Positions 3,844 to 55,921 of a stretch of 64,000 nt of DNA are shown here, in pieces. This DNA comes from a virus. The stretch is taken from IMG/VR virus record IMGVR_UViG_3300044641_004147, positions 1 through 64,000 of that record; one strand, given 5' to 3'. Within the stretch, counting starts at the first letter, position 1; each line of letters opens with the position of its first letter. The notes beneath the pieces were generated by a model. That model was not told the origin of the DNA. It made no database searches and was given only the letters and a program-made list of their open reading frames with translations. The translations under genes and the position numbers were made by a program.

Positions 3844-4482
3844 ATGGCACAGTATCTTAAAGAAAATCTTACTTTTGACCATGCCCGCATGGAAGTCATC
3901 ATGGAAGATGACGCTACGGGCAAAGGTAAGAACCTTTTCATGAAGGGTGTATTCATCGAAGGCGGAGTTCGCAATGCCAACGAGCGAGTATATCCTGTAA
4001 ACGAGATTGCTAAAGCCGTACAAACTATTAATGAACAAATCAAGGGTGGCTACAGCGTCTTAGGCGAAGTAGATCATCCTGATGATTTGAAAATTAACTT
4101 AGACCGCGTTAGCCACATGATTGAACAAATGTGGATGGACGGTCCAACCGGCCAAGGCAAGTTAAAGATTCTACCAACACCTATGGGTAAATTAGTTGAG
4201 ACTATGCTATCCAGTGGGGTTAAGTTAGGAGTGTCCAGTCGCGGTAGCGGAAACGTTAACGAAAGTAATGGACATGTTAGTGACTTTGAGATAGTCACTG
4301 TAGATGTTGTTGCACAACCCAGTGCGCCTCATGCGTATCCAACTCCGATTTACGAAGGGTTGATGAACATGCGGCACGGTCACCGGGCTCTAGAAATAGC
4401 CAAAGAGGCTCAGGAAAATCAAAAAGTGCAAAAGTATCTAAAAGAGCAAGTAACTCGCTTAATTAGAGACTTAAAATTATAA
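3844..4482 (+). CDS. 21: Prohead core protein protease (T4 gp21 family)
   Basis: 212 aa, matching T4 gp21 length. This serine protease matures the prohead by cutting scaffold, core and capsid proteins after Leu/Ile-x-Glu. The fold and catalytic logic resemble herpesvirus assemblins (MEROPS S77 type). Visible motifs are GEVDHPDD with the candidate catalytic His78, KLGVSSRGSG with Ser131/Ser132 as the candidate nucleophile, and VTVDVVAQPSAP near residue 155. The gene starts 13 nt after the acidic core gene and is followed 12 nt later by the scaffold gene, so all three are probably co-transcribed. Confidence 0.9.
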   Translation: MAQYLKENLTFDHARMEVIMEDDATGKGKNLFMKGVFIEGGVRNANERVYPVNEIAKAVQTINEQIKGGYSVLGEVDHPDDLKINLDRVSHMIEQMWMDGPTGQGKLKILPTPMGKLVETMLSSGVKLGVSSRGSGNVNESNGHVSDFEIVTVDVVAQPSAPHAYPTPIYEGLMNMRHGHRALEIAKEAQENQKVQKYLKEQVTRLIRDLKL

Positions 4483-10375: not shown

Positions 10376-12370
10376 ATGGCTATCCCAAATTTTTTCTCAG
10401 TTGAAAGAACAGGCTATACTAAGATTTCTGATCTTTTCACTGATGTAATGAAGGACATGATTGAAAACGGATTTACGCTAGTCAATGCTTCAAACGGTTT
10501 TCCAATGACTTCATGGAAGACTACAGTTGTAACTGGGGGCACCGGTCAAGCTGTAGGTAATAAATTATACATCAATGATGGTTCCAGACCAATCTATCAA
10601 GGCAGTCCCCGTCCTAGCCCATATGTAGAAGTTACCAAAGTATCTACCATTGGTAGTAGCTCGGGAGTAGTAACTGGATTATCTGAAGTCAAGGCTGATT
10701 ATGATTTTCCAATTTGGCAAACTCCGCCAACAAATCCAGTTAATTTGTATGCAACAGCATCTAGTACAACACCGCTGACTGTTACAGCGAACCTTGCTAA
10801 TACCGCAGTTACATATTCTTCTGTAGGATTCCCTGATAATGCACCAGTGTATTTTTCTTTTACACTAGAAGCTAGCGGCGATGTTGATCCGCTCAACGAA
10901 AGTCGCCCAGCACCAACACATCCATTTGTTGATGAAGTCAAGCGTCAGCCATGGCGTGTACAATTTGTAGTCGCTGACGAACAAAAAGTGTCAGGATCGA
11001 TTGCAACACCATTGCAGATGCGCTACGACGATGCTGCTGGCAAAGTTATTATCAGTAGAATTACCGACGACTTTGGAGTAGTTATTGACAATGTTGGAGC
11101 CATTGGGGCAGCACAGCCCGGTGGCATTTTCACAGACAGCGATTTAAACCAAGGTCTTTACAATAGAAAAATTCGAGTTGCACAAGAAGAAAAAACTTTT
11201 CCTTTGACTTATATTTTAAGTATCACAGACCGTGGTTTCTTCTTAGGAATTTATGAAGGCTCTTGGTCTACAATTCGTGCGGCTACTACAGTGAACAGTA
11301 ATTATTTTAACTGGGTTCTGTGCCAGCGCCCGGTTGACCGCGGTACCGGAGTTACACTAACTCGTGGCAAGGCTCCGGTGTTCCATATTAACAGCGTAAA
11401 CTACAAATACTACAAATCTGTAGTTCGCGAAGCAGATATTTTACACCCAACCAGTGGACCAAGTCCTACACCGGCTTCGGGCAATATTAATATTGCATCA
11501 TCCGCAGTGTCTGGCAATACTCCAAGTAGCTGGGTTGTCACTGGAACTCCAGATACTAGAACTGGAGAAGCTTCTCAATTCTTAGTAAATTTAGAGCCAG
11601 GTAGCACATTATATGACACTACTGGATATACCATTGGTACAGTTAAATCTATTGTCAATGATGCTAGTTTACTATTAACAAGCAAGCCCGGTAAGATTAT
11701 TACTAATCAAGACTTTTTCTATACACCCCCTAACATCTTAGCATTAAGAGTATTAGCAGATGTACACAGTCCTGATAGTCATGCAATTTTTAATGCAGCT
11801 GAACAAATTGCACTCACTGAGGATAAAACATATTTGTTAAGTTTCCCACACAACTTGACTACTCCTCGTTTCCGTTATACTGAAGAATTAGATATGGTTG
11901 GTATGACCAGTTCTGATGTTGTTATGGCTGGTCAGGACATTCAGTTCACTACCTACGGTGAGTGGGGCCCACGAACATATCGTGCGTTGCCGGCAAATGC
12001 CGCATTAAATACCGGACTAAGATTAGCAGTAATTTGGAAGCCAATGGGACCAAAATGGATTAGTCCAAACGAAGGTTCTCTAGGAGAGATATCAGCTGGT
12101 GACACTATTGATGTTGATTTTATCGCCGAAGAAGCACCAGTACCAGCTGGCGAAACACCAAGAGCAGATCCAACATTTGAAATCGTTCGCGGAAGCATAC
12201 CAAAAGGCCTAGTATTTTATACATCAGGCAAGGTCGCTGGCACAGTTGAACTGTCGGAGTACACAGAAGCAACAATGATTAAATTTACAGTGGCAGCTAA
12301 ACACATCGAAGAAGGTGTTCATGCAGGTTATGCTCTAAGAGATTTCTGGTTCACTTATGTTCCAGCTTAA
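10376..12370 (+). CDS. Large virion structural protein, paralogue of the next gene
   Basis: 664 aa, no signal peptide, beta-rich. It shares conserved blocks with the 478-aa neighbour: FNWVLCQRPVDRGTG, a HINSVNYKYYKSVVREAD block, and a RFRYTEELDMVGMTSSDVV block after LTEDKTYLLSFPHNL. It has extra regions the neighbour lacks, notably a Ser/Pro-rich insert at about residues 360-400 and a C-terminal domain after residue 560 that reads like an Ig-type putative domain (PTFEIVRGSIPKGLVFYTSG). Strong late promoter and ribosome binding site upstream. The family is not one I can name; a tail or baseplate-periphery protein is likely. Confidence 0.7.
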   Translation: MAIPNFFSVERTGYTKISDLFTDVMKDMIENGFTLVNASNGFPMTSWKTTVVTGGTGQAVGNKLYINDGSRPIYQGSPRPSPYVEVTKVSTIGSSSGVVTGLSEVKADYDFPIWQTPPTNPVNLYATASSTTPLTVTANLANTAVTYSSVGFPDNAPVYFSFTLEASGDVDPLNESRPAPTHPFVDEVKRQPWRVQFVVADEQKVSGSIATPLQMRYDDAAGKVIISRITDDFGVVIDNVGAIGAAQPGGIFTDSDLNQGLYNRKIRVAQEEKTFPLTYILSITDRGFFLGIYEGSWSTIRAATTVNSNYFNWVLCQRPVDRGTGVTLTRGKAPVFHINSVNYKYYKSVVREADILHPTSGPSPTPASGNINIASSAVSGNTPSSWVVTGTPDTRTGEASQFLVNLEPGSTLYDTTGYTIGTVKSIVNDASLLLTSKPGKIITNQDFFYTPPNILALRVLADVHSPDSHAIFNAAEQIALTEDKTYLLSFPHNLTTPRFRYTEELDMVGMTSSDVVMAGQDIQFTTYGEWGPRTYRALPANAALNTGLRLAVIWKPMGPKWISPNEGSLGEISAGDTIDVDFIAEEAPVPAGETPRADPTFEIVRGSIPKGLVFYTSGKVAGTVELSEYTEATMIKFTVAAKHIEEGVHAGYALRDFWFTYVPA

Positions 12371-40688: not shown

Positions 40689-42509
40689 ATGGCTATTATT
40701 AAAGTAAATGGAACAAGTATGCAGACCTGTGCAGTCTTCGAAGACACACGGCCTACAGGTAACAGGTTTTATTTTTGGCAAGACGCACACAAGGAAACAA
40801 ACTTAGAATATGTACTAACTGGCTTATTGATTCACAATACTGCCGCTACTACTATTTCAGGGTATGGATTTCCTAGTTTTAGTCCAAATACCACTGATTG
40901 GCGTCATACTGGTATATTAATGCTAGGTGGCGAAGTTGTACATTGCAGTCATCAAATTACCACTAATAACGATCGCAGAAATAACTTAGATTTCACTATG
41001 TTAACCAGCATGGATCCTGCAAATCCTACTCGCAATCATAGATATGTCACAGACACAACCGGCAACAATGCTTTATTCAGTCAGTTCAACCATATGCAGG
41101 TTCCGGCCGCTGCCCCTAGTGTTACATACCAAACAAGATATAATGTAGTTGGCGAAATAGATTCTCAACCTCCAACTAAGGCTAGCTCAGTAAACTATTA
41201 TCAAAGTTGGGCAGTTTTCTGGAGACAGAGCACCGGTAACATGATTCAAATTACCAACAACTATAACAGTTCAAGTGATACTAACTGGCCAAACCATCTC
41301 TGCCCAGGTCGTATTCAAAGTGTATTAACTGGTCCTGGTACTACTACATTAACCTATGCTGCCCCGACTACTTATCAAAACGTTATGTTCCAGTTTTTAG
41401 GAATAGCCACAAACGGTCAGGCTATATTTTTAAACAACTCTCTGGATAACGATCACACGCAATTATTGATGCGTTATAATGATGTTGACAATACTATAAC
41501 AACATTGGCAACATTTAACGCAGCCGTGACCGCAGCCGGGACCAGTGCTGGTGGCAGTCGCGGAACAGCACATGGAAATACACTGACTAAATTTAGCAGT
41601 AAAACATTTACAGATCCTACCAGCGCCGGTAATACTGCATGGTACACACCATTTGTTGATAGCTCGGGTAACTTCCATCCGCACTTTTTCCAGTGGAATA
41701 GAACTGCTGATACATTTACTCGTAACAGTAATATCACAGTTAACTGGGGTGCTGGTACTAACCAAAGTACAAACTGGTTACCGGACACCCTGAGTGCAGC
41801 CAGCTCGTCGACTGTGCATATGATTCAGCGTTTCTGGTATAACGAAACATTTACAGTATCTGGCACCAGATACTTAACATTGATTCAATGTCACGGGTCC
41901 GGTGCAGTCTATGACAGTGAACCTAAATATAGAACATTTATAACTTTCAGCATTGATGCAGCTGATCCAAAGATCTTAAACTATCACAGTCGTGCAATTA
42001 TTCCTGTGACACCTAAGAATATTATCTGGCTCAATGACGATCGTACACAGATGGGTGTGTTTACCTGGAATAACTTCTACATCTATACATTTACAGCAGG
42101 CAGTGGCTGGAGTCAAACTGCCAACTTACCATTTAGATTCGAAGCAGTGGGCCGAGACCAACTTGGAAGAATCTGGGCCGTGGACGGTGGACAATACACT
42201 TTTGGCAGATTGCACTTGATTACACCAGCTGTGCCAACCACAGTGTCTGTGGTCATGGCTCAAAGCAATTATAATTATCAAGGTTCAGTGGTTAATACCA
42301 CTGCTACAGTAAATGCCTATGACCAATCTGGCAATAGAATAGCCGCAGTGGTTACACTGAAGATCGAAGGCAGTTCAATGCGTTTGGTCAGCGGCGGCAC
42401 AGAATACACAGAGCTAGCAGTGACTACATCTAACAGTGCAGATACCACTGTTAATATCAGAGTAGTTGCAGCCGGAACCAGCAACATTGTTGCTTCCGTT
42501 AACATTTAA
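40689..42509 (+). CDS. Structural protein, paralogue of the gene at 42782, with C-terminal Ig-like domain
   Basis: 606 aa. It shares with the 636-aa protein downstream the blocks DPTSAGNTAWYTPFVDSSG, HFFQWNRTADTFTRNSNITV, RTQMGVF and LGRIWAV, in one order. The central ~400 residues have regularly spaced Trp/Asp/Gly strands and could be a propeller. The C-terminal ~95 residues (YNYQGSVVNTTATVNAYDQS, IEGSSMRL) look like a bacterial Ig-like domain. There is no collagen or polyglycine tract. It is probably a virion surface protein; family not recognised. Confidence 0.72.
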   Translation: MAIIKVNGTSMQTCAVFEDTRPTGNRFYFWQDAHKETNLEYVLTGLLIHNTAATTISGYGFPSFSPNTTDWRHTGILMLGGEVVHCSHQITTNNDRRNNLDFTMLTSMDPANPTRNHRYVTDTTGNNALFSQFNHMQVPAAAPSVTYQTRYNVVGEIDSQPPTKASSVNYYQSWAVFWRQSTGNMIQITNNYNSSSDTNWPNHLCPGRIQSVLTGPGTTTLTYAAPTTYQNVMFQFLGIATNGQAIFLNNSLDNDHTQLLMRYNDVDNTITTLATFNAAVTAAGTSAGGSRGTAHGNTLTKFSSKTFTDPTSAGNTAWYTPFVDSSGNFHPHFFQWNRTADTFTRNSNITVNWGAGTNQSTNWLPDTLSAASSSTVHMIQRFWYNETFTVSGTRYLTLIQCHGSGAVYDSEPKYRTFITFSIDAADPKILNYHSRAIIPVTPKNIIWLNDDRTQMGVFTWNNFYIYTFTAGSGWSQTANLPFRFEAVGRDQLGRIWAVDGGQYTFGRLHLITPAVPTTVSVVMAQSNYNYQGSVVNTTATVNAYDQSGNRIAAVVTLKIEGSSMRLVSGGTEYTELAVTTSNSADTTVNIRVVAAGTSNIVASVNI

Positions 42510-42781: not shown

Positions 42782-44692
42782 ATGGCAATTTTAAAAAATA
42801 TATACTATCCAGTTATAACCGCAGCAGTCACTGAAGATCCTACTCCGGGCAGCAGCAAAATTTATATGCAATTTGAAGCATATGATCGTGTGACACTGTC
42901 ACCGCTGTTTAATCAAGGATTGAATCACAGTACCACTGGAGTTGATTTTGCTGGGTTTGGCTCCAGTTATGTAAGAAATGATAGCTGGCAAGCCGGGCAG
43001 ATGGGAAAACTATTGCTCAATGGACCGGTAACTGAAGTGAACATATCTAACACCAGTAACAACAGTATTTGGAACATGGTCGATCCTACCATGTGGCACA
43101 GCATGGACCCTACTAGGCCTATTCGTAAGGTCAGATATGACACCAACGGAACGACTTCAGTCATAGGAATGTACGCTCCAAAGATTGTAGGACCCGACGA
43201 CGGTCGTGGCGCCGCCAACGGTACCTGGGCAGAAGCCGGTGACGGCCATTGTTGGACACAGACCTGCTTGCGTTACAATCCAGTAAACATGGAAAGTTCG
43301 TTGCCTTACTCAAATCTCCGCCGAGGCAATCAAGGTGCAGGTACTCACGGTATGCGAGCCGGCATGTGTTTTTACCCAGTGTATTTTAACACCAGCACCG
43401 GTAACATGGTTATGTTGCAGTGGGCTGGCGCAAGAACTAGTCCCGACAACGACAACAACAACACTCCTGGTTATAACAGAGCACCATCCACTGGTTATGG
43501 AGCTAGATTCACTAACTACCTGAGTACTTCCTACGGCTGGTCAGGAAATACATCAACTTATTTCCAAAATAGAAATTCACAGTTCTTAGGCGTCGACACC
43601 GGTGGCCGCGCTATATTTTTAATCAACGATGTAGCATCTGATTTCACCCAACAAGTTATCAGATATTTTGATGTGGATAATACCACTTCGGTGTTGTTTA
43701 CTAATACCACTGCTCCTTCGGCTGCTGGTACTAATGCCGGTGGCAACAGAGATACTGCATATGGCAGTTATTTTGCAAAATACAGTACCTTGACTTTTAG
43801 CGACCCTACCAGTGCTGGTAATGTAGCATGGTATACTCCTTATTTTGACAGCTCGGGTAAATTCCATCCATTTTTCTTTCAATGGAATAGAACCACAGAT
43901 ACATTTACTCGAAACAATGACATAACTGTTAACTGGGCTGGTGCAACAAACCAAGAAAATATTTGGAGTCCTGACACAATTACGGGTAGTATGAATAACT
44001 CAGCCTTTGGGTTACAGAGATTTGTGTTTACTGATACATGGACTGTAAGCTCTACTAGATATCTAATGTTTGGTCAAGTCCACGGAACCGGAACTGTTTA
44101 CGATAACATACCCAAGGCAAGAACTTTTGTAGTGTTTACAGTAGATGCGGCTAACCCAAAACTGTTAACATATCATAGCTCTATAACAATTCCTACAACA
44201 CCTAGAAATATAATCTACTTTAACGAAAACACTAGGACACAAATGGGAGTGTTTTCTGCATCGGCCTTTTACACATATAACTTTGCGCCAGGAACTGGCT
44301 GGGTATTAACTGGCACATTGCCGTTTACTTTTGCTGCCTGCGGTGTAGACAGCCTGGGTAGAATTTGGGCCATGGCACCAGGTCCGCATGGCTACGGTGA
44401 AATACACATGATTACATTGAATGTACCAGTGACCATTTCTGTGACTTCTCCACAGATCAGTTACAATTTTACTGGTACAAATATTAATTCTTCATTAACT
44501 GTCAATGCCTATGATACCGCAGGAGCAAGAATAGCTGTGGCTGTCAAACTGGTCATCGATGGAGGTTCAATGACCTTTGCCGGCAGCACATTGACTACTA
44601 CTATAAATACTTCGGCTTCTGCTGATACTACTGTTCCGGTTGTTATTACAGGTTCGGGCATCAGTAACGTTATTGCCAGCGTAGTGTTGTAA
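42782..44692 (+). CDS. Structural protein, paralogue of the gene at 40689, with C-terminal Ig-like domain
   Basis: 636 aa. It aligns by eye with the 606-aa protein over most of its length (FSDPTSAGNVAWYTPYFDSS, FFFQWNRTTDTFTRNNDITV, RTQMGVF, LGRIWAM), including the same C-terminal Ig-like domain (YNFTGTNINSSLTVNAYDTA, VIDGGSMTF). Differences concentrate in the N-terminal third, where it has MVDPTMWHSMDPTRPIRKVR. The two could form a hetero-oligomer or give alternative binding specificities after duplication. Confidence 0.72.
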   Translation: MAILKNIYYPVITAAVTEDPTPGSSKIYMQFEAYDRVTLSPLFNQGLNHSTTGVDFAGFGSSYVRNDSWQAGQMGKLLLNGPVTEVNISNTSNNSIWNMVDPTMWHSMDPTRPIRKVRYDTNGTTSVIGMYAPKIVGPDDGRGAANGTWAEAGDGHCWTQTCLRYNPVNMESSLPYSNLRRGNQGAGTHGMRAGMCFYPVYFNTSTGNMVMLQWAGARTSPDNDNNNTPGYNRAPSTGYGARFTNYLSTSYGWSGNTSTYFQNRNSQFLGVDTGGRAIFLINDVASDFTQQVIRYFDVDNTTSVLFTNTTAPSAAGTNAGGNRDTAYGSYFAKYSTLTFSDPTSAGNVAWYTPYFDSSGKFHPFFFQWNRTTDTFTRNNDITVNWAGATNQENIWSPDTITGSMNNSAFGLQRFVFTDTWTVSSTRYLMFGQVHGTGTVYDNIPKARTFVVFTVDAANPKLLTYHSSITIPTTPRNIIYFNENTRTQMGVFSASAFYTYNFAPGTGWVLTGTLPFTFAACGVDSLGRIWAMAPGPHGYGEIHMITLNVPVTISVTSPQISYNFTGTNINSSLTVNAYDTAGARIAVAVKLVIDGGSMTFAGSTLTTTINTSASADTTVPVVITGSGISNVIASVVL

Positions 44693-44708
44693 TCAAAGGA
44701 TAAGAACA

Positions 44709-47700
44709 GTGACTCAAGCCACCGGCGGTACAATATCGTACTATATTAGAAACAATGTTGCTTACAAAGTACATACATTTACTACCAGCAGTACTTTAAC
44801 TGTAACCGAAACAGGCAACATTGACATTTTAGCTGTAGCCGGCGGTGGTGCCGGGCATGGCTATGTTGGCGGTGGAGGTGGTGCTGGTGGACTACTGTAT
44901 CAAACAAACTTATCAATTGCCAGTAATTTAACTATTACCATTGGTGCTGGATCCACTGGTGCTCAATACGGAACTACACAAGACGCTGCCAATTCGGCCG
45001 CCGGTGGGAACACCACTGTAACAGGCACTGGCGTAAGTTTAACTGCTGTTGGCGGAGGTAGTGGCGGTGGATATTCGGACTCCAATGGCAGTGCTGGTGG
45101 ATCTGGCGGTGGTGTTGGTGGCGAGCAAACCGGCGGCGGTACTGGCGGTGCTGCCACTGGCAGTCAGGGTAACCGAGGCGGAAATAGCGTAAGTGGGCGC
45201 AGTGGTAATGCTACCGGAGGTGGTGGTGGCGGTGGTGCAGGTGCTGTTGGTGGCAACAGCATAGGAGCAGGTACAACCACAGCTGGATCAGGTGGTGCAG
45301 GTAAACGCGAAGGTGTGGACTTTTTCATTGATGGCTCTGGGCTATGGTATGCAGGCGGTGGTGGTGGTGGCATGTTCAATGCTGGAACTGCTGTGGCCAC
45401 CGGTGGCAATGGCGGAGCTGGTGGAGGTGGCGGTGGTGGCGCTTTTGGCAGTGTAAGCACTCCCGGTGCCGGAGGAATTGGCCGCAACACTGGCGGAATT
45501 GGTCAAGGCAGTGATACTGCTGGACGAGGTGGCGACGGCGGAGCCAATACCGGTGGCGGCGGCGGCGGAGTAGGTCACTATAGCACAGGAACTAACGGCA
45601 GAGCCGGATCTGGTGGATCCGGTATTGTTATTGTTCGGTATTCATTTACACCCACAGGATTAACTGCTACACGAAATTCTGCAACACTGACACTAAACAA
45701 ATACGCAACCAATACCAGTACAGCACCAGTGACTGGCACCAGTGGCTCTAATGTTTACTCGTATTCTATTAGCCCTGCACTGCCAACGGGTTTATCTATT
45801 AACACCAGTACCGGTGCCATTGTTGGACAACCGCAGACTGCGGTCACTGGTGTTACCTATACGGTTACAGTCAATGATGGATTTATTTCCGAAAGCAATA
45901 CATTTAGTCTAACTACCACTACAAATTTGGCAACATCTATTGAAGCTGCCGGAGGTAGTTTAGGTTATTACTATAACAGTACTAGAAATACAATTTACAA
46001 AACACACACATTTACTTCAGCAGGAAATCTAGTGGTAACCACTCCGGGTACTATTACCATTTCTGCCTGGGGTGGAGGTGGTGGTGGTGGTTGGACCGCA
46101 GGATCCGGTGCAGGTGGCGCTGGAGCTTTTGTACAGGGCGATTTTGCAGCCAGTGTAGCATCTTACGGCATTGTAGCCGGAGGTGGTGGTTTGTCAAGAG
46201 CCAACGATGTTGGCCCCGGCGCAGCCCCAACTGGTGGCGGTGGCTTGCCAGGTAACGCAGGTTACGGTGGCCAAGGTGGTGGATACAGTGGATTTTTTGC
46301 AACCACTACTATTAATCAAGCTGGAGCATTATTGATTGCCGGTGGTGGTGGTGGTGGTGGCTGGGAAGGCAGGGCCGGCGGTGCTGCCGGAATTGCCGTA
46401 GGAAGCCCGGGGCAAGACGGAACAACATATGGCGGCCGCGGTGGCAGTCAAACAGCCGGTGGCTATTCGGCCAGTGGAGCCGGCAGCGCACTACAAGGTG
46501 GTAATATTGCTGCTCAAGGTGACGGAGGTGGTGGCGGAGGCGGCGGCGCTGGCTACTTTGGCGGAGGCGGTGGAACCAGTGACGGTACCGGATCTGGCGG
46601 CGGAGGTGGCAGCAGCTATTTTGCCGGCAACATAACCACTACTACAGGCGAAGCCGGCTCGGGAACGATATCTGGCGGAACTACCAGTGCATTATATCGT
46701 GGTTGGGGTATAGGAGGAGCGTCCGGGGCAAATAACGGAAATCCTGGCGCAGTGATTGTATCTTATCCGTTTGAGCCTTCGCCGTTGATAACAACAGTTG
46801 CAACTCCTAGTGTAACTTTAAATCGTTGGACCAATAACGGCGGCGTGACACCAATTACAGTCACTGGTGGACTGGCACCATATTATTACACAGTAAGTCC
46901 TGCAGTACCAGCAGGGCTACATTTTAATACATCAACTGGACAAATAACCGGTCAACCAATTACGGCCACTGCATCAACTGTTTATACTGTTACTGTAAGA
47001 GATTCTACTATTACTCTACTTGGAGCACCAGTTAATAGCGCCATCGATACTTTTACGCTGACAACTACTATAACATTACCCGGTGCCCAAACAGTCACTG
47101 GAGGCAGTACATCTACTACTTCTGCTAACGGACTAAACTATCAAGTACATACATTTACATCTTCGGGCAATTTAACTCTAGGTCAAACAACTACACTAGA
47201 GTATCTTGCAGTAGCCGGTGGTGGAGGTGGTGGCGGACGACATGGTGGAGGTGGTGGCGGTGGCGGATTAGTTACCGGCACCATAGCTTTACCTGCTGGT
47301 ACATATCCAATTATTGTAGGAGCCGGTGGCTCGGGAGCACAAACTGACACACAGGGTATCGATGGTGTTGATTCGGGTATAATTCAAAGTCTGCAACACG
47401 GCTCTGGTGAGTTTGATGGCAGATCAAGCTATATACAGTTGGCTAATAGTACAGCACTGGCATTAAATGGAGTGTCTTGGACTATAGAATGTTGGGTAAT
47501 GCCAACTGGTGATTACTCAGGACAAGGTAGAACTATTTTCAGTAAGCGAGTGTCTGGCGCTACAACTACTGCATATTATGGATATTTACAGGCAACAACT
47601 GGATTTGTAGGATACTACAACGGAACAACAGAATTAACATCATCGACTGTGCTTACTCCTAGAGTATGGAGTCATATTGCATGGGTTTACAACGGTACTA

Positions 47701-48704
47701 ACATAAGAATTTTTGTAAACGGAGTATCTGTATTAAACACTGCAACAGCAGTTAGTGAAATCAATGAGCCATTGGTAATTGGTGGAACACGGGGATACAA
47801 TGCTTGGTTCCATGGATACATAAGTAACCTTAGAATTGTTAAGGGTACAACACTGTACACAGCAGACTTTACACCGCCTATAGGCCCATTAACAGCTATC
47901 AGCGGAACAAGTTTGCTAACACTACAACATCCAACTGCTTGGGTAGATAGTTCAACCAATGCGGCTGCTATCACTACCAGCGGCACTCCAGTACAGAGTC
48001 CGTTTAACCCATTTAACAATCTGGATGCATCCGGGGGCGGTGGTGGCGGTTCTTATTCTAGTAACGCACCAACTGCGGGTCGTGTTGGAGGATCTGGTGG
48101 CGGCGGCGGTACCAGCGGGGCAGCTGGCGGCGCAGCCTGGATAGGACAGGGCAACGCAGGTGGACAAGGTAACAACGACGAAGGTGGTGGCGGTGGTGGC
48201 GCCGGCACTCCTGGTCAAACTGCTGTAGGCAGTGTTTATGCTGGTGCTGGTGGTACGGGCGCAATATCAAACATTGACGGTCTAAACTATTACTATGCAG
48301 GTGGCGGTGGCGGTGGATCTTGGCAACAAATTGCCGGCGCCGGCGGACTTGGCGGTGGTGGCGGTGGTGGTGGTGGCGATACGGCAACAACCAATGCTGG
48401 TGCAGGTGGCACCGGCGGCCGCACCAATGGTGCTGCTGGTGTAGCAGGATTTAGTGGAAATGTCAACGGCGGTGCTGGCGGAGCCAACACTGGTGGCGGT
48501 GGCGGATCCAGCGGTCAGCGTGACTTCCAAAGCTATACTGGCGTAGGCGGCAATGGTGGTTCGGGTATTATAATCGTTAGATACATTACCGGTCCTGGGC
48601 AGTTGTTAACTTCAAAAGTAATACCAGAAGTATTATTTGGAAAGTACGATAATACACCACAGATTCCGGTCGCTCCAATTGGTGGAACAGCACCATACAC
48701 TTAG
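44709..48704 (+). CDS. Giant polyglycine/LamG/He_PIG adhesin, part before in-frame TAG (GTG start)
   Basis: 1331 codons from a GTG start (AAAGGA site 10-15 nt upstream) to a TAG. Modules: polyglycine domain 1 (~36-314), He_PIG-type Ig domain 1 (SYSISPALPTGLSINTSTGA, ~314-407), polyglycine domain 2 (~411-687), He_PIG 2 (YYYTVSPAVPAGLHFNTSTG, ~688-788), polyglycine domain 3 with a LamG domain inserted (LamG ~896-1094), and the start of He_PIG 3, cut after APYT by the TAG. The reading frame continues without another stop for 627 codons to 50588 with more of the same domains, so the intact product would be about 1959 aa. Confidence 0.8.
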   Translation: MTQATGGTISYYIRNNVAYKVHTFTTSSTLTVTETGNIDILAVAGGGAGHGYVGGGGGAGGLLYQTNLSIASNLTITIGAGSTGAQYGTTQDAANSAAGGNTTVTGTGVSLTAVGGGSGGGYSDSNGSAGGSGGGVGGEQTGGGTGGAATGSQGNRGGNSVSGRSGNATGGGGGGGAGAVGGNSIGAGTTTAGSGGAGKREGVDFFIDGSGLWYAGGGGGGMFNAGTAVATGGNGGAGGGGGGGAFGSVSTPGAGGIGRNTGGIGQGSDTAGRGGDGGANTGGGGGGVGHYSTGTNGRAGSGGSGIVIVRYSFTPTGLTATRNSATLTLNKYATNTSTAPVTGTSGSNVYSYSISPALPTGLSINTSTGAIVGQPQTAVTGVTYTVTVNDGFISESNTFSLTTTTNLATSIEAAGGSLGYYYNSTRNTIYKTHTFTSAGNLVVTTPGTITISAWGGGGGGGWTAGSGAGGAGAFVQGDFAASVASYGIVAGGGGLSRANDVGPGAAPTGGGGLPGNAGYGGQGGGYSGFFATTTINQAGALLIAGGGGGGGWEGRAGGAAGIAVGSPGQDGTTYGGRGGSQTAGGYSASGAGSALQGGNIAAQGDGGGGGGGGAGYFGGGGGTSDGTGSGGGGGSSYFAGNITTTTGEAGSGTISGGTTSALYRGWGIGGASGANNGNPGAVIVSYPFEPSPLITTVATPSVTLNRWTNNGGVTPITVTGGLAPYYYTVSPAVPAGLHFNTSTGQITGQPITATASTVYTVTVRDSTITLLGAPVNSAIDTFTLTTTITLPGAQTVTGGSTSTTSANGLNYQVHTFTSSGNLTLGQTTTLEYLAVAGGGGGGGRHGGGGGGGGLVTGTIALPAGTYPIIVGAGGSGAQTDTQGIDGVDSGIIQSLQHGSGEFDGRSSYIQLANSTALALNGVSWTIECWVMPTGDYSGQGRTIFSKRVSGATTTAYYGYLQATTGFVGYYNGTTELTSSTVLTPRVWSHIAWVYNGTNIRIFVNGVSVLNTATAVSEINEPLVIGGTRGYNAWFHGYISNLRIVKGTTLYTADFTPPIGPLTAISGTSLLTLQHPTAWVDSSTNAAAITTSGTPVQSPFNPFNNLDASGGGGGGSYSSNAPTAGRVGGSGGGGGTSGAAGGAAWIGQGNAGGQGNNDEGGGGGGAGTPGQTAVGSVYAGAGGTGAISNIDGLNYYYAGGGGGGSWQQIAGAGGLGGGGGGGGGDTATTNAGAGGTGGRTNGAAGVAGFSGNVNGGAGGANTGGGGGSSGQRDFQSYTGVGGNGGSGIIIVRYITGPGQLLTSKVIPEVLFGKYDNTPQIPVAPIGGTAPYT
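48702..48704 (+). other. In-frame amber codon interrupting an adhesin domain
   Basis: TAG at codon 1332. The flanking reading is APYT-TAG-SISPSLPDG. The equivalent positions in the two earlier domains of the same protein have Tyr (VYSYSISPALPTG and PYYYTVSPAVPAG). One base change from TAT or TAC explains it. Confidence 0.9.
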
Positions 48705-50588
48705 TCTATTAGTCCCAGCTTACCTGATGGCGTGTTATTTTCCTCTGGTAACGGTGCGGTGTACGGTACACCATCTGTGGCAGTATACGATGCTACTTAT
48801 ACTGTTTCTATCACAGACTCATCAGCAACACCGGTTACTGCAACAAATACCTTTGTATTGAGCACCAGCGTTAGCTATCAATATGCCATAGATTTAGTGG
48901 CAAATAGGCTGTTAAAAATTACCACTGAATATGGAATTTCAGACACCGACAGACGATCGGCTTATATCGAAAGTCCGGGCGCACAGATCATTACAAATAA
49001 CTTACAGTCTAATAACAAATCTTTGATATACGGCAATGTGTTGTCTGTGTCTAGTCTGGCTAATGTTACATATGGAATTGGCCCGGATATAGTAACCACA
49101 GTCACAGTGCCCACTACATTTAATAACTATGTCAATGTCGGTGGAAACCTAAAGACATATTACGGTAATATTGTGGCCAATGTCAGTGGATTCTTTTTAT
49201 CTAATGCATTTTATGGCACAGCGGGCTCATACACCTGGACTGTGCCTGCTGGAGTATCTAGTATCAGTGTTGCCGGAGTTGGTGGCGGTGGTGGTGGAAG
49301 CCAAAAAACTACCGGAGGTTCTGGTGGCGGTGGTGGTCAGTTAACCTATATCAACAATGTACCAGTTACTCCCGGGGATACTTATACCATTGTTATTGGT
49401 ACCGGGGGCAACACTGGCAGTAACTTTGGTGTCAGTGGTGGTGATACCTACATGTTCAAAAACACAGGAAATACTGTGCCAATATTATTGGCCACCGGCG
49501 GTCGTGGTGGAGACAGCATGTACTGGACAGACACTTCTAGTTTTGTTTCGGTATCTAGCTCTCCGGCATCAATGTCATTTTACACATTTCGGGCCACGAG
49601 TCCGTTGAATCAAACTATAACCTATAGTTTTTCTGGACCATTACCCGGTAATGTTACTGTAAATTCTTCTACTGGTGTATTGGGCGGAGTGCCCGAAACA
49701 GTAGGAAATGTAACCAATTATCCAATCACTGTGTCGGCAGTGACCACAGCACAAACAATTACAAAGCCATTTACTTTGACAGTTAGACCATTAACTGAAG
49801 TTACTTATGTTGCAATCGGTGGAAATACATTAGGAACTGCTACCACAGGATCCTTTACAGTGTTAAACACACCTTTTGTTGATGTTTGGGGATGTGCCGG
49901 CGGTGGTTCTACAATTGCGCCAGGAGCTGAACCGGGAGCCGGCGGTGGTGGCGGTGGCGCTAGCCAACTGAATGGTTATAGACTGACCGTGACTCCCGGG
50001 GAAACACTTACTTATAGTATTGGAAGTTATGGTCAGCCTACTACTATCAGTCGTGGCGGTACGGTCATCTTCCAATTAAATGCTGGTAGTAGTACTACCA
50101 ATTCTACTGGTGGTGCCGGCGGCACTGCTAACAGTTATTCAAGTCATGCGGGTGGTGCAGGCGCCAACGGAGGTGGAAGATTCACCGGAGGCAGCACCGC
50201 ATCCAATGTGACTGGTTGTGCCGGCGGAGGTGGTGGCGGCGGCTACGGTGATAATAGTCCTTATACCCTTGGCGGGGCAGGCGGCAATGGCGGCACTAGC
50301 AGCGTTCCGGCTGGATCAATTTGTATCGGCAGCATAGGGGGCACAGGTGGTGCTAGAACCAATCCACCAACAAGAGGTGGAAACATACTATTGGCTGAAG
50401 GCGGTAGAGTCACCAACGAAGGCTGGCAAGGCATGGGCGGTGGAGCAGGAGGAGGAATTAAGATAAATGCTATCAGCACTACCAATTTCTACGGAGGTGG
50501 CGCTGGTGGCGCTGGTGCTGTATATACAGCTAACCAAACACCCGGTGGACCTGGTTGCCTCTACGTATATTGGAATGCTAACAGTTAA
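48705..50588 (+). CDS. Same giant adhesin, part after the in-frame TAG
   Basis: 627 codons in the same frame as 44709-48704. It opens with the second half of He_PIG 3, then unique beta sequence, polyglycine domain 4 (from SYTWTVPAGVSSISVAGVGG), a fourth He_PIG-like domain (NQTITYSFSGPLPGNVTVNS) and polyglycine domain 5, ending PGCLYVYWNANS. The first possible internal start is a GTG at 48732 without any ribosome binding site, so independent translation is unlikely. Codon use and domain integrity after the TAG are as good as before it, which argues against an old pseudogene. Confidence 0.7.
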   Translation, partial: SISPSLPDGVLFSSGNGAVYGTPSVAVYDATYTVSITDSSATPVTATNTFVLSTSVSYQYAIDLVANRLLKITTEYGISDTDRRSAYIESPGAQIITNNLQSNNKSLIYGNVLSVSSLANVTYGIGPDIVTTVTVPTTFNNYVNVGGNLKTYYGNIVANVSGFFLSNAFYGTAGSYTWTVPAGVSSISVAGVGGGGGGSQKTTGGSGGGGGQLTYINNVPVTPGDTYTIVIGTGGNTGSNFGVSGGDTYMFKNTGNTVPILLATGGRGGDSMYWTDTSSFVSVSSSPASMSFYTFRATSPLNQTITYSFSGPLPGNVTVNSSTGVLGGVPETVGNVTNYPITVSAVTTAQTITKPFTLTVRPLTEVTYVAIGGNTLGTATTGSFTVLNTPFVDVWGCAGGGSTIAPGAEPGAGGGGGGASQLNGYRLTVTPGETLTYSIGSYGQPTTISRGGTVIFQLNAGSSTTNSTGGAGGTANSYSSHAGGAGANGGGRFTGGSTASNVTGCAGGGGGGGYGDNSPYTLGGAGGNGGTSSVPAGSICIGSIGGTGGARTNPPTRGGNILLAEGGRVTNEGWQGMGGGAGGGIKINAISTTNFYGGGAGGAGAVYTANQTPGGPGCLYVYWNANS

Positions 50589-53600: not shown

Positions 53601-55524
53601 AGGTAGAGGTATTACCTCAGTTGAAGCACAAACTTGGTATCATGTGGTACTGACCTATACCAGTGGCACAGCCAAATTCTTTGTAAACGGACAACTACGA
53701 GATGTTACCACAGGCTTAGGCAGTATTACTGCCAGAGCAGAAACATATGTTATTGGACAGGAAGATAGTATATGGATGGATGGTTACATCAGTAACTTTA
53801 GATTCTGTAATGGCAGTATACCTACTCTGTATCAAACTGCTAGTACCACAATTGGCGCACAAATTTTTACGCCGCCAACTGCATCATTGACCACTACCAG
53901 TCAAGGAGCCACAGCGGCACATGTAAGATTACTAACTTGCCAAAGCTCTACAGTAGTTGATAATTCTACTAATAACTTTACGCCAACTAAAACTGGTGAG
54001 GTTATTTCTGTAAGATTTAATCCGTTTGAGAGATTGACCTCAGTGGGTGGCGGTGGTGGTGCCAGCGAATATAGTAACAACAACAGCCCGGGTCGCTCTG
54101 GTGGCAGTGGCGGTGGCACAGCCGGTGATAGTAGTACCACTTTTGGCCGAGGAATTCGGCCTAATTTACAAGGCTTACTGGGGCAAGGATTTGCTGGCGG
54201 TGCCAGTGGGGGCAGGTACTATCCTAGTGGTGGTGGCGGTGCCGGGGGCGCAGGTTCTAATAGTCCCGGCAACGGTGGCAACGGTGTACTAAATTCTATT
54301 TTGGGCGTAGGCTATTACTGGGCTGCTGGCGGCGGTGGTGCTGGTTATAGCAGTAATCCTGGTAACGGCGGACTAGGTGGTGGCGGAGGCGGAGCTCCAA
54401 AACAAAGTAGTGCATTTGGTGTTGCCGGCACCGGTGGTTATCAACCGGGCACAGATGGTACAGTTGGTAGCTTAAATAGCCAAACTAACGTTCCTGGAGG
54501 CCGTGGGGGCACAAACACCGGATCTGGTGGCGGTGGTGGTGCTCATTATAATAGTAATAATAATGGCGGAGCCGGTGGGTCTGGCATTGTAATTCTTAAA
54601 TATCGTCCAGACCAAGTTACTTTGTCGGGCGGTAGTCTTAGTTTAACTCTTACTACCTTGGATAATATCTATGGTGGAGGGTTCGGTGCCACTGGCAGCT
54701 CGTTGGCTGCTGGCAATAGAGGTAGCTTATTTGGCGGTGGTGGCGGTGGATCTGGCTCAGCCAAAGGTGGCGGTGGCGGTGGTATCAGCGTTATTGGTGT
54801 TCGTGATGGCTTGGCCTTAGGAGGCACTGCGGGCGGAACTGACGGCGGCAACGGACAAGCAGGTATTTTTGGAGAACCTGGTAGCAACGGTAACGGTGGA
54901 TTATACGGCGGGGGTGGTGGTGGTACTACTTACAGCGTACTAGATCCTGCGGTAGGAAACGGTGCCCGTGGTGCATTGGCAATTTTCTGGCAAGGAAATA
55001 TTTTACAGTATCCTACAGTAATACAGGCCAATAATGTGTCTGCTTTTGGTACGCCATGGGCATTGGCTCCTGGCGGAAATATTGCCCAGGGCTATTTACT
55101 TTCTAATGTAACCATTGAAAGTTTAGAAGCCGGAATAAGCGGAAACACCAGCACATTATTGGAACTAGAAGTGCGGTCCGAATCTAGGCCCACTGCCAAC
55201 AGTAATTTGGGTATTCTCACTGATACTATAGCAAATGCTAATATTAGAGCTGTGCTCAGTGTGAATTCTGTAACTGCAACTACTCCAATTACCGCGGTAA
55301 ATAACATTGCAGTCCAAGAACTTCAAATTATTACTTATAGAACCGATGACGAAATGATGTTGGTCACTGTGCAAAATACTGGTGGTTACACCAATTCTGC
55401 ACAGCGTATTGATCGTATCACAGAAGAAAACGATCCACGCAGAGTTAAGGCATATCTATTAAACTATATTGTTGGAGTTACTGGAGAAGACAACGATATT
55501 ATCCAGACACAAATCTGGTTCTAA
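50620..55524 (+). CDS. Giant polyglycine adhesin with two inserted LamG domains
   Basis: 1634 aa. Polyglycine domain A (~39-260) starts SIEYLVVAGGGSGGG and shows the module without insertion. Domains B and C begin TFEYMVAAGGGGGGS and TVEYLVVGGGGGGGS, and each is interrupted after its TVTVGAGG strand by a LamG-type domain (~387-600 and ~922-1137) before the glycine-rich lattice resumes. A further glycine-rich stretch follows (~1350-1460). The C-terminal ~170 residues are non-repetitive (LLELEVRSESRPTANSNLGI, YRTDDEMMLVTVQNTGGYTN) and may be a folding or attachment domain. It has an AAGGAAA site. It is a probable surface-binding adhesin. Confidence 0.83.
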   Translation: MPLATGGTLTTITVGSTTYNVHTFTSSGTLTFTSGGSIEYLVVAGGGSGGGDAGADGGGGGGGFLSGTASATVSPYTITVGAGGAANTSGSDSSFSLAGTAIGGGRGGRFIAWNAGEAGQNGGSGGGGSGNYFGGQAGGTGTAGQGNNGGSGAVFSNGSYKGGGGGGAGSVGGAAGATSAGNGGSGAVSSITGVNITYAGGGGGGSIQESGATTGGDAGAGGGGEGQRSGSRSATSGLTNTGGGGGGGAGAGGSGIVIVRYIPDAGSGAPVPVSYPVATGGTSTTQEVNSIGTKQVYNIHAFTTSGNLTVTQGGTFEYMVAAGGGGGGSDMGGGGGGGGFLTGNITLNPGTYTVTVGAGGTGATAGTDQPRAISGGSSAITPFGFKGHSYSFDGIGDGVNCGTQSAYAIGSGAFCLEGWIYNHVVKDYSTLWTTRPDNGAYGDAYHIGWSAVGGISLYVGSAAVVGGASGTIRAGQWQHIAACRNSSGNTAFFVDGVRVGYVASYTNNFTRSLLGLGDFPTTKVESINGYISNARIVVGNAVYNPTQTTYTVPTAPLTAISGTVILTAQDNSFIDNSPNNFTLTAQGNSQTSHFTPFTGMAIGAAGGGGGASDHTSPAATSAAASGGSGGGAAGNNANRGIGITGQGSAGSNSAGSWYPGGGGGAGGAGATNPANGGVGRESTILGTSYYWSGGGAGAGYTGISGNGGIGGGGGGAPKSTNGGGSPGAGTYAQGQVPYMLVGNHGAYGTLNAQTNVPGGPGIINSGGGGGGGSHIGTSNPGGNGGSGMVVIKYLASANASGSGGAGGPNAGGGGGAGNDGYLGRVVPSVITVFTSSGNLTVTGAGTVEYLVVGGGGGGGSDMGGGGGGGGYLAGFTTLSSGTYLVTVGAGGAGAPAGISQPPGSNGGDSAIQTYASGIGNNYSYYFDTYNDFISFPSNAAFDIGSNDACKELWFWMYKDDGTYHTFCGQNSGTGSTIRLAYNNGQLYYSINNDTGRGITSVEAQTWYHVVLTYTSGTAKFFVNGQLRDVTTGLGSITARAETYVIGQEDSIWMDGYISNFRFCNGSIPTLYQTASTTIGAQIFTPPTASLTTTSQGATAAHVRLLTCQSSTVVDNSTNNFTPTKTGEVISVRFNPFERLTSVGGGGGASEYSNNNSPGRSGGSGGGTAGDSSTTFGRGIRPNLQGLLGQGFAGGASGGRYYPSGGGGAGGAGSNSPGNGGNGVLNSILGVGYYWAAGGGGAGYSSNPGNGGLGGGGGGAPKQSSAFGVAGTGGYQPGTDGTVGSLNSQTNVPGGRGGTNTGSGGGGGAHYNSNNNGGAGGSGIVILKYRPDQVTLSGGSLSLTLTTLDNIYGGGFGATGSSLAAGNRGSLFGGGGGGSGSAKGGGGGGISVIGVRDGLALGGTAGGTDGGNGQAGIFGEPGSNGNGGLYGGGGGGTTYSVLDPAVGNGARGALAIFWQGNILQYPTVIQANNVSAFGTPWALAPGGNIAQGYLLSNVTIESLEAGISGNTSTLLELEVRSESRPTANSNLGILTDTIANANIRAVLSVNSVTATTPITAVNNIAVQELQIITYRTDDEMMLVTVQNTGGYTNSAQRIDRITEENDPRRVKAYLLNYIVGVTGEDNDIIQTQIWF

Positions 55525-55543: not shown

Positions 55544-55921
55544 ATGGCACATTTTGCTAAAGTAGAAAACGGTACAGTTACACAGGTTATTGTAGCAGAA
55601 CAAGATTTTATCGATTCTGGTGCAGTAGGAGATCCTGCAAGTTGGTTACAAACTAGCTATAATACACGCGGCGGTGTACACTATGGTCAAAATGGTGAAC
55701 CCGATGGCAGCGCAGGACTACGCAAAAATTATGCAGGAATTGGTTACACTTACGATACCGGCAGAGATGCGTTTATTCCGCCTAAGCCCTTTGACAGTTG
55801 GGTACTCAACGAGAGCACTTGTCTTTGGGAAGCGCCGGTGGAAATGCCGCATGATGGTCAGCGTTATACCTGGGATGAACCCACAACCAGCTGGGTTTTA
55901 TTACCCGAAATGAACCCTTAA
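55544..55921 (+). CDS. Conserved small protein of aquatic T4-like phages
   Basis: 125 aa. The ATG at 55544 is preferred because AAAGAGGAAA lies just upstream and the frame upstream overlaps the previous gene. The sequence MAHFAKVENGTVTQVIVAEQ, then TSYNTRGGVHYGQ, LRKNYAGIGYTYD, DAFIPPKPFDSW and STCLWEAP, is a layout I recognise as a recurrent small protein of cyanophage-type genomes, usually of unknown function. It is soluble and Trp/Pro-rich at the C-terminus. It is the last gene of its unit before the promoter/inverted-repeat region at 55948. Confidence 0.8.
   Translation: MAHFAKVENGTVTQVIVAEQDFIDSGAVGDPASWLQTSYNTRGGVHYGQNGEPDGSAGLRKNYAGIGYTYDTGRDAFIPPKPFDSWVLNESTCLWEAPVEMPHDGQRYTWDEPTTSWVLLPEMNP

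Follow-up and report, generated by a model that had tools for sequence, protein, structure and literature searches.

An in-frame TAG at a conserved tyrosine position interrupts a putative giant phage adhesin gene

The putative adhesin gene and its phage

The window, by which we mean the whole stretch of DNA analysed, comprises the first 64,000 nucleotides of a 93,346-base virus record (IMGVR_UViG_3300044641_004147). On its forward strand, the frame 44709–50588 is open for 1959 codons save for a single internal stop, a TAG at codon 1332 (48702–48704), and translation bears out what the first-pass annotation had read there. A Shine-Dalgarno-like AAAGGA (44695–44700) lies upstream of the GTG start at 44709. 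The 5′ part of the gene, 1331 codons up to the TAG (44709–48704), encodes Gly-rich and He_PIG modules, with He_PIG domains 1 and 2 at 45678–45920 and 46809–47069, and a Laminin_G_3 (concanavalin A-like lectin) domain at 47415–47843 (Pfam PF13385, 2.5e-18). The third He_PIG domain (48660–48863) contains the TAG. Past it, the 627 codons of the 3′ part (48705–50588) are intact; the remainder of He_PIG 3, Gly_rich_2, He_PIG 4 (49539–49784) and a Gly-rich C-terminus are kept before the final TAA, in agreement with the earlier claim that the domain structure continues unharmed beyond the stop. The one stop in 1960 codons aside, no damage was found 3′ of the TAG. Since codon usage downstream favours the TAG’s own frame (log-likelihood per codon −1.157) over the shifted frames (−1.353 and −1.224), the 627-codon tail is coding sequence. 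When the entire 93,346-base record was scanned for stops flanked on each side by 80 or more open codons of the same frame, the only TAG returned was the one at 48702.

The source is a T4-like myophage, as its portal, major capsid and sheath proteins match PHROGs families. The major capsid protein is 66–67% identical to those of jumbo phages, PA5oct and MIJ3 among them, and the phage is probably a jumbo phage itself; because its capsid kin are jumbo phages, the record is probably a fragment. Two separate tail-sheath family matches occur in the record, one at 10376–12370 (phrog_12249) and one outside the window at record positions 81511–84720 (phrog_10581). Just before the interrupted gene stand two genes (40689–42509 and 42782–44692; 606 and 636 aa) whose C-terminal parts both match phrog_20698 and phrog_22549, and which look like tandem paralogues. 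The place of the interrupted gene in a row of fibre-like genes, together with its Gly-rich, He_PIG and Laminin_G modules, suggests that it encodes a host-binding adhesin or tail fibre. No decayed, frameshifted or otherwise broken gene was seen elsewhere in the record; a frameshift suspected at 55469–55524 was rejected, as a separate gene begins with an ATG at 55544. The record holds no reverse transcriptase that would point to a diversity-generating retroelement. Outside the window, record positions 70401–74519 form one open frame of 1372 codons, which, judged by eye, may encode glycosyltransferase domains and, after them, a methyltransferase of the FkbM type.

The tyrosine column of the interrupted domain

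The Pfam He_PIG profile (PF05345) spans the TAG with a score of 30.8 bits (cut-off 24) and a single TAG inside the match. In the column occupied by the TAG, the frame’s three other He_PIG domains all carry tyrosine, encoded by TAT in domain 1, TAC in domain 2 and TAT in domain 4. The first-pass annotation had pointed to tyrosine in the two earlier domains, and the pattern is thus stronger than it had claimed. Either tyrosine codon becomes TAG by one base change. In other He_PIG domains of the record and of its relatives, this column is filled by Tyr, Phe, Leu or Ile, and tyrosine stands at the same position in two Ig-like PDB chains to which the domain matched. In an AlphaFold2 model that reads the TAG as tyrosine (built on an alignment of four sequences; pLDDT 74), the residue lies in a predicted beta strand (36–41) with four more strands after it, so a product ending at the TAG would stop inside the domain.

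Searches for relatives of the gene returned little. Among the viral contigs scanned there was no close relative of either half; a 4.3-kb contig gave a short local match only (71% over a small portion of the adhesin, at contig positions 1174–1284) and was the sole relative from that scan. An exact DNA pattern spanning the TAG codon found no match in its search, the neighbouring gene used as a query found no relative, and the genome contigs searched for relatives of the adhesin yielded nothing. In a phage collection, the matches listed were mostly to the lectin domain, and a query with the He_PIG domain produced one weak match. No orthologue of the adhesin, and no relative with the same TAG codon, was found in the collections searched.

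TAG as a stop codon in the phage and its relatives

Stop codon usage in the window is strongly skewed: 36 of 41 genes end in TAA, TGA is used only at 860, 10301, 31360 and 34591, and TAG only at 48704. The statement in the first-pass annotation that genes stop at TAA or TGA and at no other TAG therefore stands for the window’s gene list, but it fails beyond the window, where at least two genes end in TAG (88490–88492 on the forward strand and 91874–91876 on the reverse strand); past each of these the frame is soon closed by other stops. Each of the ten relatives examined also has genes that stop at TAG. The orthologue of a conserved head gene (3844–4482) ends in TAG in 7/10 of them, at positions that agree to within one residue, and in TAA here; this gene is a handy marker that TAG acts as a stop in the phage group. 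Pairs of frames joined by an in-frame TAG in the relatives themselves were rejected as candidates, three being antisense to longer frames and two being ordinary gene junctions of the 3844–4482 orthologue.

The 93,346-base record, itself probably a fragment, contains no tRNA gene and hence no amber suppressor, tRNA(CUA). In one relative, 15 tRNA genes form a cluster that lacks an amber suppressor, and scans of nine other relatives found none in the parts available. For the capsid-related jumbo phage MIJ3, 12 tRNAs are listed, again without a suppressor (PMC6892783). The earlier judgement that TAG is unlikely to be recoded in general is upheld by TAG ending genes in the phage and its relatives, with no other in-frame TAG.

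Origin of the in-frame stop

One stop codon interrupts the gene; it differs by a single base from the tyrosine codon to be expected there, and the frame is intact, with coding signal, to either side. We lean, with modest confidence, towards a real and recent point mutation that truncates the adhesin in the sampled phage population; the likelihoods given here and below are our judgement and were not computed. Originally there would have been one adhesin or tail-fibre gene of about 1959 codons, in which a single transversion would have turned the core-strand tyrosine of the third He_PIG domain into TAG. Read as a stop, the TAG would leave a 1331-residue adhesin that breaks off in the middle of an Ig-like domain and lacks the last 627 residues. 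Against this reading, the record shows no decayed genes elsewhere, and the adhesin’s loss of function is an assumption. Such a mutation would resemble those seen in the fibre genes of phages whose host range is under selection. We infer that the base is real, that the change is recent and that truncation results.

Comparable cases are on record. In kayvirus 812K1/420, a premature stop likewise divides a large myophage tail-fibre gene, orf119, into two ORFs; the stop there results from a 77-bp deletion, and the phage is a host-range mutant that was isolated, whereas here it would stem from one substitution in an uncultured phage known from sequence alone. A nonsense mutation also splits the ribonuclease H gene of 812K1/420 in frame (PMC6445280). 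Among prokaryotic genes, in-frame stops are commonest in the phage/transposon category, and in bacterial genes most of them are short-lived; the TAG studied here resembles them as a single stop between intact flanks, most likely recent, but the evidence in that work consists of orthologous stops and dN/dS (PMC7918605), whereas the searches here found no orthologue of the adhesin.

The most serious rival to a recent nonsense mutation is that the TAG arose as an error in sequencing or assembly, or from a path through mixed strains, a possibility that we hold tentatively and at a clearly lower likelihood. The true codon would then encode tyrosine and the gene a single 1959-residue adhesin. One wrong base would explain everything: both flanks are wholly intact, all sister domains have TAT or TAC, and the TAG is the sole one of its kind in the record. 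As the searches found no close relative of the gene, a wrong base call or a fault of assembly would look just like a mutation. Against an error, no exact repeat longer than 11 bases that could misjoin strains was found at the positions sampled near the TAG, and the record has no frameshift or other broken gene. A stop is moreover an unlikely outcome of an error a priori, as ~3% of random substitutions in the adhesin gene would give one, though the site was chosen for its oddity.

Programmed or leaky amber read-through, by which the majority of fibres would bear the 1331-residue adhesin and a minority the 1959-residue form, we regard as improbable, and slightly more improbable still a DNA phage that displays mixed short and long host-binding fibres through amber read-through at one adhesin codon. 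The downstream half is open and its domains are kept, as read-through would have it, and with about two thirds of the likely jumbo genome lying outside the record a suppressor tRNA could be encoded there or in the host. However, the 93 kb at hand contain no tRNA gene, the 12 tRNAs of capsid-related MIJ3 include no suppressor (PMC6892783), and no relative with the same TAG was found. The base that follows the TAG is T, an unfavourable context, since a T at +4 is reported to lower read-through in E. coli, an effect described mainly for UAA (PMC5289835). The RNA 3′ of the TAG folds no better than shuffled sequences (z −0.35), and thus shows no stimulatory structure. CARYYA is a read-through motif 3′ of stop codons, and the bases after the TAG, TCTATT, do not fit it. 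In the modelled fold, the short form would also end inside a domain, directly after the interrupted strand. The leaky UGA of phage Q-beta, whose read-through produces the minor coat protein A1 with a conserved and needed extension, offers a likeness in that the long form of a virion protein would depend on reading through a stop; the adhesin differs in having a TAG and in being known from one sequence. Thus, among the options raised in the first-pass annotation, a nonsense mutation and a sequence error are supported, whereas read-through is left without positive support (no tRNA gene, T at +4, no excess structure).

Fission into two cistrons, the second translated by coupling from a GTG at 48732–48734, is about as doubtful as such mixed fibres. 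This GTG is the first possible start past the TAG, 28 bases downstream on the same strand and in the same frame, near enough for re-initiation; but no Shine-Dalgarno-like sequence precedes it, as AAAGGA does 44709, and it lies within He_PIG 3, so that each product would carry half of one Ig-like domain. We do not think it a real start.

General reassignment of TAG (code 15 or similar), to which the scarcity of TAG stops in the window might point, is to our minds vanishingly unlikely and, unless confined to the adhesin gene, is refuted by the use of TAG as a stop, at 88492 and 91874 (reverse strand) here, in 7/10 relatives at the conserved head gene and at the ends of genes in each of the ten relatives examined; moreover, one gene only in 93 kb has an in-frame TAG, and glutamine would break the tyrosine column. 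In recoded phages, by comparison, many genes contain TAGs, as do 41 ORFs of phAss-1 (PMC10607447). Phages that recode TAG (code 15, Crassvirales, Lak phages) share with the present case an in-frame TAG in a structural gene and have low apparent coding density (PMC11210395); the adhesin gene differs from them in its single TAG, with TAG stops elsewhere and no suppressor tRNA found.

Taken together, the findings are what a recent point mutation of an ordinary kind, or an error in one base, would produce, and do not point to a novel reading of the genetic code. The initial observation is correct and careful, and its explanation is ordinary; only read-through would be a surprise, and nothing that we found favours it. 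Should the TAG prove an error, it would warn those who annotate metagenomes that a single base is enough to break a giant gene in two. If the TAG is real, it adds a further natural example of a point mutation that cuts short a host-binding gene of a phage, and host range may shift in this way.
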